From Opitutales bacterium (GTDB taxonomy: Bacteria > Verrucomicrobiota > Verrucomicrobiia > Opitutales > Opitutaceae), in NCBI GenBank assembly GCA_018700525.1, contig JABITN010000020.1, positions 1-64,000 of the forward strand: DNA of 64,000 nt, in the 5' to 3' direction. This document shows positions 50,057 to 60,258 of this stretch, in pieces. Both the position numbers and the translations under genes were made by a program. Below the pieces are notes generated by a model that did no database searches, had not been told where the DNA came from, and saw nothing but the letters and a program-made list of their open reading frames with translations. Position 1 is the stretch's first letter, and each line of letters starts with the position of its first letter.

Positions 50057-51463
50057 CTATTTTTGTTTCGGCTTCACGTAAGTCACGTACTCGCCGCCGT
50101 ACTCATCCCTCAGTTCATCGCAGCGTGCCCGCATCTTGGCGATCACACGTTGATACTCAGGATTATTCGCATAATTCACCAACTGATCCGGATCAGCCTT
50201 CAGATCATGCAGAAATTCGTAGTCGTTTTCGAAATACCGAGCATACACGTATCGCTCGCCTCGTACGCCTTCATACTTAGGAATCTTCGCGTTTTCCATC
50301 AGGTGCTCGCAAAAGAAATCATCGCGCCAATTCCGGGCTTTCTTTCCCTGAACCATCGACAGCAAACTGCGTCCTTGGTAATGCGGTGGTGTATCGATTC
50401 CCGCGGCATCGAGAAATGTCGGAGCAAGATCGATATTCAAGACAACTTCGGACTCCGTTCTGAATGCCTTCTTTTGCTTCACTCGGGGATCGTAGATAAT
50501 CATCGGCACGCGCAGGCTTTGCTCGAAGTGATTCCACTTTCCCGCCATTCCGCGGTCACCCATCATGTATCCATTATCTCCCGTATAGACTATGATGGTA
50601 TTGTCAGCGATTCCCTTCTTCTCCAAAGCCCGAACCACGCGTCCGATCGTGTTGTCGATTCCGCTTAGCATTCTAAAATACGCTCGAATATTCGCATCGT
50701 ACTTCTCCGGCGTATCCCAACGCCAGTACCAGCGTTGACGATTCATGGATCCTTCAAGAAAGAAATCAGGTAGTCCATCCCTGACGCTCGGGTCGCCCAA
50801 TCGCGGATTGGAAATCTCTACGTCCTCATACATTCCATCCATTGCCTTCGGCCACGGGAAATGCCCTATTCCGGGAATATGATTACCATCGTCGGCGTGC
50901 GATGCATTGAAACTTACCGACAAGCAAAACGGTCCTTCCGACTCTTGAATGAAATTCACCGCAAAATCGCCCGACAACTCAGTCTCATGCCGAACCGAAC
51001 CATCCTCCTGCTTATGCAAGTATGGACTGCCGCGAATTTCCTCGTAAGCATCGAAAAACTGATTCTGCTTAGGCTTAATTCCGTATTTCCCTACGAAGCC
51101 CGTTCGATAACCCGCTCTTTTAAAAAGCGCAGGGTATCCATTTGAAACATACTCATCCGAAACCGGCGGTTTACCGAAAGTATAACCATGAGTTCGCTCA
51201 TGCAGGCCCGTAAAGATCGAAGCTCGACTCGCCGCGCAAATGGCAGTCGTTACGAAAGCGTTTTCGAAGCGAACGCCTTCTTCTGCCAATCGATCGACAT
51301 TTGGCGTTTTAACGATTGGATGCCCTGCGCAGCCCAAGGTATCATTGCGCTGATCGTCGATCAGGAAAAAGAGAACATTGGGACGTTCATCTGCGGCAAA
51401 CGCAGAAGACAGCAGCGCAAAGCAGGCCAGTCCCATGGGCAGGAATCGAGATCGGAGCATCAT
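50057..51463 (-). CDS. Sulfatase (S1 family), secreted
   Basis: A 468-residue enzyme with a leader ending SSAFAADE. Metal site NVLFFLIDDQRNDTLGCAG, formylglycine motif CAASR (Cys76) in VTTAICAASRASIFTGLHERTHGYTFG, VGKYGIKP, FCLSVSFNASHADDG and VYTGDNGYMMGDRGMAGKW. The Ala at motif position 3 fits the C-x-P/A-x-R rule. The NDTLGCAG opening and GMAGKWNHFEQSLRVP segment resemble choline-sulfatase/mucin-desulfating sulfatases. It is upstream of the CRPSL sulfatase in the same direction, so the pair may form a transcription unit. Confidence 0.93.
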   Translation of the reverse strand: MMLRSRFLPMGLACFALLSSAFAADERPNVLFFLIDDQRNDTLGCAGHPIVKTPNVDRLAEEGVRFENAFVTTAICAASRASIFTGLHERTHGYTFGKPPVSDEYVSNGYPALFKRAGYRTGFVGKYGIKPKQNQFFDAYEEIRGSPYLHKQEDGSVRHETELSGDFAVNFIQESEGPFCLSVSFNASHADDGNHIPGIGHFPWPKAMDGMYEDVEISNPRLGDPSVRDGLPDFFLEGSMNRQRWYWRWDTPEKYDANIRAYFRMLSGIDNTIGRVVRALEKKGIADNTIIVYTGDNGYMMGDRGMAGKWNHFEQSLRVPMIIYDPRVKQKKAFRTESEVVLNIDLAPTFLDAAGIDTPPHYQGRSLLSMVQGKKARNWRDDFFCEHLMENAKIPKYEGVRGERYVYARYFENDYEFLHDLKADPDQLVNYANNPEYQRVIAKMRARCDELRDEYGGEYVTYVKPKQK

Positions 51464-56664: not shown

Positions 56665-58137
56665 TCAACTGCCCTTCAAACCATTTTTAGCCACATATGA
56701 CGCCAAGGTCGTAGGTTTCATCTCCAACAATGCCGCCGCTCCATTCGGACCGTAGATCTTCCAGTCAGCCATTTTCAATGCGCCTCGAACGTTCTCGCTC
56801 ACGCACCGCTTCATCTCCGCATCAGTCAGCACTTCCTGCTCTTCAGAACCATCCACAAACGACCCCTTACCGGAAGGCGTCTCGAACAATTCGAAACGAA
56901 GCGCCTTTCCTGTCGCCGTCATCGTCGCCCGCTCGATCACATTCTGCAACTCACGGGCATTTCCCGGCCAATCGTAGCGCTGAAGCTGCTCCAAGTTCGC
57001 TTTCGTCAATCGAGGCGAAGGTCGATTAAAGTGCTTTTTCGCCGCCAATAAGAACTTCGTTGCCAAGTCCGCTACATCCTCGCGGCGATCCCTCAGCGGA
57101 GCCACCTGAATCGGAAATACATTAATCCGATAATACAAATCTTCGCGAAACCCACCTTCCCGCATCTCTTTTTTCAAATTCCTATTCGTCGCCGCAACGA
57201 TTCGCGTATCCACTTTTATAGATCGGCTCTCTCCCACGCGTTCGAACTCCCGTTCCTGCAACACGCGGAGCAACTTGCTCTGCATCGAAGGCGGCAACTC
57301 TCCTATCTCATCGAGAAAAAGCGTTCCCTTATCCGCCAATTCGAACGATCCTGCCCGATCGCTCGTCGCTCCCTTAAACGCTCCTTTCACATGCCCGAAA
57401 AACTCGCTCTCAAACAAGTCCTTCGGAATCGCCGGACAATTAACTTTTATGAACGGACCCGAACTTCGATCGCTCAAATGATGAATTGCCCGGGCCAAGA
57501 GCTCCTTCCCGGTTCCCGTCTCGCCCGTAATCAAAACACTCGCCGAAGTCGGAGCCACTGTTTCCACCCGCATCAATGCGTTCCCAATGGCCGACGATTG
57601 ACCCACGATGTTCTCGAAATTATTTTGAAGCTTTATCTCCTCCTGCAGGTAGGTGTTCTCCGCGGCTAATCGGTCTTTCAACTTTTGCACCTTCCCCAAC
57701 GCCTTTCGAAGATTTTCCTCCGATTCCTTTAGCGGCGTCAGATTTCGAAAGACCACCACAGCGCCGATCAAATTCCCGCTCTTCCAAATCGGCGTGCTCG
57801 TATATTCGACATTCAAGCTCGTTCCATCCTTACGCCAAAAAACGTCCCCGCACACCGAATGAACCTTCCCGTCGCTAAACGCCGCGTAAATCGGACAGGT
57901 CTTCGCCGAATAACTCGATCCATCCGGATGCGAATGGTGAATCAAATCGTGAGACGATACGCCCAACATCTCTTCCTGACTGTAGCCAATCATCTCGCAT
58001 GCAGCGGGATTCGCGAAGGTCGTTCGACCATTCGCATCCAATCCGAATATCCCATCGCCCGCGGAATTCAAAATCAACTCTCCTAGAAGCGAACCAAAAT
58101 TCGACTCCATCTTCGAACCTTCCGCATAGAAATCCAT
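56665..58137 (-). CDS. PAS-domain sigma-54-dependent transcriptional activator
   Basis: A 490-residue regulator. Residues ~15-135 form a PAS domain (DGIFGLDANGRTTFANPAACEMIGYSQEEMLG), and 136-175 a coiled coil. The AAA+ sigma-54 interaction domain spans 180-415, with Walker A GETGTGKE (205-212), Walker B GTLFLDEIGE (271-280) and FREDLYYRINVFPI. The C-terminus is a Fis-type helix-turn-helix (GAAALLEMKPTTLASYVAKNGL). The sigma-54 contact loop, usually GAFTGA, here reads GAFKGA (252-257). It should activate an RpoN promoter. It is divergent from cysI, and the gap holds two perfect palindromes plus a -24/-12 element, so cysI is the likely target. The PAS ligand is unknown. Confidence 0.93.
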   Translation of the reverse strand: MDFYAEGSKMESNFGSLLGELILNSAGDGIFGLDANGRTTFANPAACEMIGYSQEEMLGVSSHDLIHHSHPDGSSYSAKTCPIYAAFSDGKVHSVCGDVFWRKDGTSLNVEYTSTPIWKSGNLIGAVVVFRNLTPLKESEENLRKALGKVQKLKDRLAAENTYLQEEIKLQNNFENIVGQSSAIGNALMRVETVAPTSASVLITGETGTGKELLARAIHHLSDRSSGPFIKVNCPAIPKDLFESEFFGHVKGAFKGATSDRAGSFELADKGTLFLDEIGELPPSMQSKLLRVLQEREFERVGESRSIKVDTRIVAATNRNLKKEMREGGFREDLYYRINVFPIQVAPLRDRREDVADLATKFLLAAKKHFNRPSPRLTKANLEQLQRYDWPGNARELQNVIERATMTATGKALRFELFETPSGKGSFVDGSEEQEVLTDAEMKRCVSENVRGALKMADWKIYGPNGAAALLEMKPTTLASYVAKNGLKGS

Positions 58138-58149
58138 AAGACGATATGA

Positions 58150-58200
58150 AACGAAATTTCGTTCTTTACAACTACTTTTCGTTATAAACGAAATTTCGTT
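58150..58200. promoter_or_regulatory. Twin 14 bp palindromes, probable activator binding sites
   Basis: AACGAAATTTCGTT occurs exactly at 58150-58163 and again at 58187-58200, centres 37 bp apart. Between them TTTCGTT (58177-58183) pairs with the start of the second site across ATA, giving a further overlapping palindrome. They start 13 bp from the activator's own ATG and about 95-145 bp upstream of the predicted cysI start of transcription. That is the normal distance for an enhancer-binding protein, and it also allows autoregulation. Confidence 0.8.
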
Positions 58201-58268
58201 GTAAATAAAAGCCCTAAAACTCCTCGCAACCCGCTTTTAAATAGGAACCTATAACTATTTCATCAGTC

Positions 58269-58284
58269 TCGCACGTTGATTGCA
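58269..58284 (+). promoter_or_regulatory. Putative sigma-54 (-24/-12) promoter for cysI
   Basis: TCGCACG, four bases, then TTGCA. Against the consensus TGGCACG-N4-TTGCA there is one mismatch (the first G of GG is C), and the GG-to-GC spacing is the required 10 bp. Transcription would start near 58295, about 26 bp before the cysI ATG. Confidence 0.65.
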
Positions 58285-58320
58285 AAGAGCTCTAATAACC
58301 TTTTTGAACCGTCACATTGA

Positions 58321-60072: not shown

Positions 60073-60258
60073 ATGAAACCCGAAGAAACCAAACGTAAAA
60101 TCCGTTGGTCGATACTATCGTCCATCATAACCTCAACCATCCTCGCAGCGCTCACCTACTTCGTCCTGCCTGATATGAGGATCGCTTTCTACTTCCTCAT
60201 GTGGTTCGGAACCTTCTTCGTTTGGTGGATGTGGACCATGATGGCCACACACTATTAA
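60073..60258 (+). CDS. Small two-helix membrane protein
   Basis: A 61-residue protein beginning 42 bp after cysI. A basic N-terminus (MKPEETKRKIRW) precedes two membrane segments (about 14-31 and 37-55), the second rich in Trp/Phe/Met (FYFLMWFGTFFVWWMWTMM). I recognise no family. The spacing and direction suggest co-transcription with cysI. It might be an accessory of the reductase or of an electron donor, but nothing in the sequence proves this. Confidence 0.6.
   Translation: MKPEETKRKIRWSILSSIITSTILAALTYFVLPDMRIAFYFLMWFGTFFVWWMWTMMATHY

Follow-up and report, generated by a model that had tools for sequence, protein, structure and literature searches.

In the stretch of Opitutales DNA analyzed here (64,000 nt in full, referred to below as the window), a gene for an enhancer-binding protein and the gene for assimilatory sulfite reductase, cysI, are divergently arranged around a 183 bp gap, which raises the question of whether sulfite reduction in this organism is switched by sigma-54. 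An earlier, sequence-only reading had proposed that it is, citing two exact palindromes, an overlapping third half-site and a -24/-12 element with one mismatch, 37–52 bp before the cysI ATG. All are present in the gap (Table 1), far beyond chance expectation: two ACGAN4TCGT sites were found in 0/20,000 dinucleotide shuffles of the gap, and a plus-strand -24/-12 element at one mismatch or fewer likewise in 0/20,000. Both copies of the exact palindrome lie in the gap and there are none elsewhere in the 4.8 Mb genome; the paired array likewise occurs only once, before cysI. A simple scan of the gap for a sigma-70 promoter gave no clear candidate. The operators and promoter can be understood as an inherited family module, but the proposed switching of cysI by sigma-54 at the present day is not supported by the features described below. 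The window also carries members of the PVC-type families TIGR02989 and TIGR02604, which underlie its assignment to the PVC group.

Table 1. Features of the activator–cysI locus (window coordinates).
Feature	Position	Strand	Remarks
PAS-AAA+-HTH enhancer-binding protein gene (P0001), 490 aa, CynF-like clade	56665–58137	-	Pfam PAS, Sigma54_activat, AAA_lid
Codon of Ser264, in place of a conserved Arg just past the sigma-54-contact loop	57346–57348	-	Alignment with relatives
Codon AAG, Lys255, fourth position of GAFTGA	57373–57375	-	Alignment with relatives
Operator 1 (putative), exact palindrome AACGAAATTTCGTT	58150–58163	.	Conserved in sister species G066
Middle operator (putative), AACTACTTTTCGTT	58170–58183	.	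Three mismatches; left half decayed, only the right half intact
Operator 3 (putative), exact palindrome AACGAAATTTCGTT	58187–58200	.	Conserved in sister species G066
Sigma-54-type -24/-12 element TCGCACGTTGATTGCA, G-25 changed to C	58269–58284	+	81 bp from start of operator 3 to start of promoter
cysI, assimilatory sulfite reductase hemoprotein subunit, 569 aa	58321–60030	+	TIGR02041 and NF010029 above cut-off
61-aa membrane-like protein (P0003)	60073–60258	+	42 bp after cysI; no Pfam match

Operators, promoter and activator relatives

Relatives of the activator numbered 80 in one scan of bacterial genomes; most are full-length, at 44–57% identity to it. The 23.9 kb of sequence upstream of 77 relatives contains 77 ACGAN4TCGT sites, compared with 11 in 777 kb taken from elsewhere in the relatives' DNA as a control, a 228-fold enrichment, and the sites typically form sets of three with intervals of 17 and 22 bp. 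Because of this enrichment, the palindromes of the window are identified, by sequence, as putative operators of the activator's clade; the link between palindromes and activator drawn in the sequence-only reading is thereby supported, as it is by the footprint in the sister species. The window activator combines full-length homology to the clade with an ACGAN4TCGT array upstream. What had been described as a third half-site is the middle operator, and the sister species has AACGATTTTTCGTT in register with it. Only 13 bp separate operator 1 from the activator ATG, and the activator, which would be expected to bind the array, may regulate its own gene through it.

The label CynF-like describes gene neighborhood, not sequence similarity to CynF. 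Where examined, the relatives adjoin genes for cyanate-type ABC transporters, cyanase, Nit1C nitrilases and a formate/nitrite transporter, while others adjoin clusters of isochorismatase-, pirin-, nitroreductase- and hydrolase-like genes (judged by eye from the sequence). Targets thus vary within the clade, and that of the window, cysI, is not a cyanate or nitrile gene. As the usual target of the family cysI was rejected, since it is present at 0/80 of the relatives' loci. The suggestion that the signal is sulfate released by neighboring sulfatases found no support, given that the relatives adjoin cyanate, nitrilase and detoxification-type genes and not those of sulfate assimilation; no copy of the operator was found at the nearby sulfatase gene (50057–51463, PF00884). 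In CynF/cynABDS of Pseudomonas pseudoalcaligenes CECT5344 (PMC6627978), the activator gene and its target likewise point away from each other, with only 268 bp between them and a predicted sigma-54 promoter at the target, and relatives of the window activator adjoin cyanate-type transporter and cyanase genes. The likeness is one of gene context: the window differs in its target, in having GAFKGA and TCG where the CynF system has GAFTGA and TGG, and in a single PAS domain in place of a longer N-terminus. Cyanate induction and ammonium repression are known properties of CynF alone (PMC6627978). The clade has a more distant member in another genome from this phylum (L147, 6978–7113); there, three AACGAANNTTCGTT operators are followed by TGGCACACCCCATGCA 82 bp further on, and the array faces a cluster of carboxymuconolactone-decarboxylase-like, hydrolase, isochorismatase and nitroreductase genes (names judged by eye).

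The promoter motif of the window, TCGCACG-N4-TTGCA, is the sole site with one mismatch or fewer to TGGCACGNNNNTTGCW in the 64 kb. Scored against TGGCAC-N5-TTGC it matches at 11/12 positions, and the lone mismatch falls on one G of the -24 GG; of the GG at -25/-24 and GC at -13/-12 that mark sigma-54 promoters, the -25 G is therefore lost. The GG is kept in 63/63 relatives with a recognizable sigma-54 site, sites that were selected at up to two mismatches anywhere, with no requirement for the GG, and it is kept in the sister species (TGGCGCG). The weight placed on G-25 rests on this conservation and on what is generally known of sigma-54 promoters. Among the relatives, the array is followed by a divergent sigma-54 promoter at distances that cluster near 58–60, 68–70, 78–83 and 91–96 bp, and at 81 bp the -24/-12 element proposed in the sequence-only reading sits where the sigma-54 promoter of the family is found. 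The clusters (loci L063–L141) step by about one helical turn and form a natural data set for studying enhancer phasing. The genome encodes RpoN (PF00309, 50.8 bits) with a canonical RpoN box, ARRTVAKYRE (read by eye from the sequence), so the absence of this sigma factor, which had been named as a possible objection to the circuit, does not apply.

The activator and its sigma-54-contact loop

In its domains the activator is as first described, with a PF00158 match of 243 bits, AAA_lid, the Walker A and B motifs GETGTGKE and GTLFLDEIGE, and a C-terminal Fis-type HTH, the combination expected of an enhancer-binding protein. What had been overlooked is that the GAFTGA motif, in which Thr or Ser is expected at the fourth position, reads GAFKGA (residues 252–257). 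Position 255 is Thr or Ser in 79/79 aligned relatives and Thr in the sister species, but Lys in the window, and a GAFKGA-type pattern was found in the window gene only among 150 genomes of the family. At position 264, Arg is present in 78 of the 79 relatives (Lys in the other) and in the sister species, and Ser in the window. Across 159 well-conserved columns of the activator there are five window-only deviations versus none in the sister only (sign test p ~0.06). The altered recognition helix was rejected as a case of window-specific erosion, since the sister species shares an aromatic residue at 481 (Phe versus Tyr). The long branch of the activator leaves its placement in the tree uncertain.

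The activator is not a plain pseudogene: overall it is under strong purifying selection, its ATPase motifs are intact and two of its operators are perfect. Its dN/dS relative to the sister species is 0.057, within the 0.046–0.094 of the flanking genes, at a dS near 1.3 that is close to saturation. This value disfavors a pseudogene over the whole divergence, and a recent relaxation is still compatible with it. Most relatives share a conserved HH(S/T)xxDGxxYxxxxCPIY motif in the PAS domain (P0001 residues about 66–85), a possible sensing site.

Substitutions of the GAFTGA Thr mostly abolish sigma-54 activation, Thr or Ser being needed, and natural homologues with an altered loop (TyrR, DhaR and HupR) are sigma-70-dependent (PMC3162934). 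The PspF variant T86A retains ATPase activity and does not engage the sigma-54 closed complex (PMC4132715), and Caulobacter NtrC, which lacks the GAFTGA motif, acts at sigma-70 promoters and also as a repressor (PMC10274813). Within the literature covered, no Lys mutant at the fourth position of GAFTGA was found. The window activator resembles TyrR, DhaR, HupR, VpsR and the NtrC proteins of Caulobacter and Rhodobacter (PMC3162934, PMC10274813) in pairing a conserved AAA+ domain and HTH with a sigma-54-contact loop that is altered, and several of these proteins act on sigma-70 promoters. The NtrC cases are loop deletions, whereas the window protein has a single Thr-to-Lys change in an otherwise full loop, and a sigma-54-like promoter is still there.

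cysI and the sister species

The identity of cysI is well supported (TIGR02041, 778.6 bits, cut-off 756.55; NF010029, 812.9 bits, cut-off 457), and a mis-called nitrite reductase was rejected, nitrite reductase models scoring far below cut-off. A search of the organism's own genome found no other CysI; what else matched were fragments of a single, distantly related NirA-like gene. Genes of the PAPS-reductase family and one for a short CysJ-like protein are present as well, which makes it probable that the organism relies on this sole cysI to assimilate sulfate. The best CysJ-like protein (L182, 1429–2652, contig C213) matches residues 217–597 of CysJ only and is without the N-terminal (FMN) part. 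Downstream, the gene for the 61-aa protein is the probable second gene of the cysI unit. Sites of the ACGAN4TCGT type were found at 0/35 other cysI loci in the order (1/36 with that of the window), so the conservation upstream of orthologous cysI genes that a general circuit would predict is absent, one of the refuting outcomes named in the sequence-only reading. The link between the sigma-54 module and cysI is, across the loci compared, lineage-specific.

A search of 373 genomes of the order had suggested that the activator was acquired by this genome alone, but this was overturned when the genus was searched and G066 was found, the single sister genome on which the species comparison rests (draft assemblies in both cases). 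Its activator is 89% identical, the array there comprises three operators, and the operator-to-promoter distance is again 81 bp. The syntenic contig carries genes for a PQQ propeller protein, the activator, the 61-aa protein, an ECF sigma factor and a FecR protein, the first two of these genes being separated by one for a NUDIX protein. The sister promoter, TGGCGCGGTCCTTGCA, lies at the same distance from the array, and 10/12 specified bases are kept between the species. The operator block is identical at 45/53 positions, compared with only 23/68 in the operator–promoter spacer. Conservation of the operators, the 81 bp spacing and the promoter while the spacer diverged points to a module under selection before this gene position, and the sigma-54 module before cysI is, from this comparison, very probably ancestral.

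The cysI gene itself is deleted in the sister species. About the first 30 codons are left (MKPENPAANLSSNLQELRKLVKNEALKDSP, then a stop), followed directly by the gene for the 61-aa protein (92% identical; L186, 9737–9934), with no intact gene left between it and the sigma-54 promoter. Another CysI, encoded on a different contig of G066, is 58% identical to that of the window.

The fate of the sigma-54 switch

GAFKGA, R264S and the lost G-25 together make sigma-54 activation of cysI at present doubtful, and leave the proposal of a working sigma-54 switch for sulfite reduction without support. Taken with the published Thr substitutions and the altered-loop homologues, they lead us to infer that this activation has been lost or strongly weakened. 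We favor, with a probability of roughly 0.6, an inherited module whose sigma-54 end is lost or altered here, cysI being now mainly sigma-54-independent. Ancestrally, a CynF-like PAS-AAA+-HTH activator would have bound the three-operator array beside its own gene and, through the divergent -24/-12 promoter 81 bp past the array, switched on cysI. In the window lineage, the substitutions T255K and R264S, in and beside the sigma-54-contact loop, together with G to C at -25, would then have removed or altered the sigma-54 end. cysI would now be expressed mainly without sigma-54, and the operator-bound protein may be a sigma-54-independent regulator, a repressor or an eroding relic. The first of these, a GAFKGA protein that remains functional and, through point changes in the loop, has come to regulate sulfite reductase independently of sigma-54 from the old enhancer array, is a tentative proposal that we consider somewhat improbable. 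Some observations count against loss of the sigma-54 end: the activator is under strong purifying selection overall, with intact ATPase motifs and two perfect operators, the promoter has one mismatch only, no clear sigma-70 promoter was seen, and the 5:0 asymmetry reaches only p ~0.06.

The strongest competing explanation is that cysI expression from the -24/-12 promoter continues to be driven by the activator via sigma-54, Lys255 and C-25 being tolerated and perhaps mutually compensating. In PspF, DNA is contacted by basic residues close to the loop (PMC9770992), and by analogy Lys255 might be tolerated. Array, spacing and promoter position all match the clade, rpoN is present, the protein is conserved overall and the promoter is a single base from the motif; against this, both sigma-54-specific features that are invariant in the relatives are changed in the window and not in the sister species, and activation is mostly abolished where this Thr has been replaced in published work (PMC3162934, PMC4132715), so we consider continued activation unlikely. 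It is very unlikely that the array serves the activator gene only, with its closeness to cysI accidental and the cysI promoter elsewhere. The short distance from the nearest operator to the activator ATG would suit such an arrangement, as would the lack of these sites at any other cysI examined (0/35), but the -24/-12 element reads toward cysI at a family-typical distance, and the sister species keeps the promoter, at the same distance, before the surviving first codons of the same gene. Also very unlikely are sequencing or assembly errors in a canonical circuit, which a draft assembly of 268 contigs and changes of one base each might allow, but there are three separate changes (T255K, R264S and G-25C), all at functional positions, and the reading frame stays open over 490 codons with no other frame damage.

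A sigma-54-controlled sulfite reductase is not wholly new as a theme. The sequence-only reading knew of no sigma-54/cysI circuit of this form, but promoter scans in Aquificia (PMC12316311) predict sigma-54 promoters for genes of the sulfite reductase beta subunit (COG0155), and CysI1 and CysI3 of P. pseudoalcaligenes are cyanide-induced, placing sulfite reductase in a response to cyano-compounds (PMC5333837). The Aquificia case concerns another phylum and a promoter scan only, with no activator or operators described, and the cysI3 cluster has GntR-type regulators, with no sigma-54 activator of it described. Within the literature searched, three elements are new: the clade's operator code with its geometry, the decay of one circuit in opposite directions in two sister species, and a regulator that carries GAFKGA while the rest of its enhancer module is complete.

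The comparison supplies an operator code and promoter geometry, defined from sequence, for PAS-type sigma-54 activators of a broad clade. Within one genus, the same circuit has probably decayed in opposite ways: the window lineage keeps the target and has lost sigma-54-specific residues, so that the switch here is probably lost or rewired, while the sister species kept the switch and lost cysI. If the GAFKGA protein does function as a sigma-54-independent regulator, it would represent a recent and still almost complete transitional stage on the way to regulators of the TyrR/VpsR type. With two codons and one promoter base differing, the exit of enhancer-binding proteins from sigma-54 control becomes directly testable.
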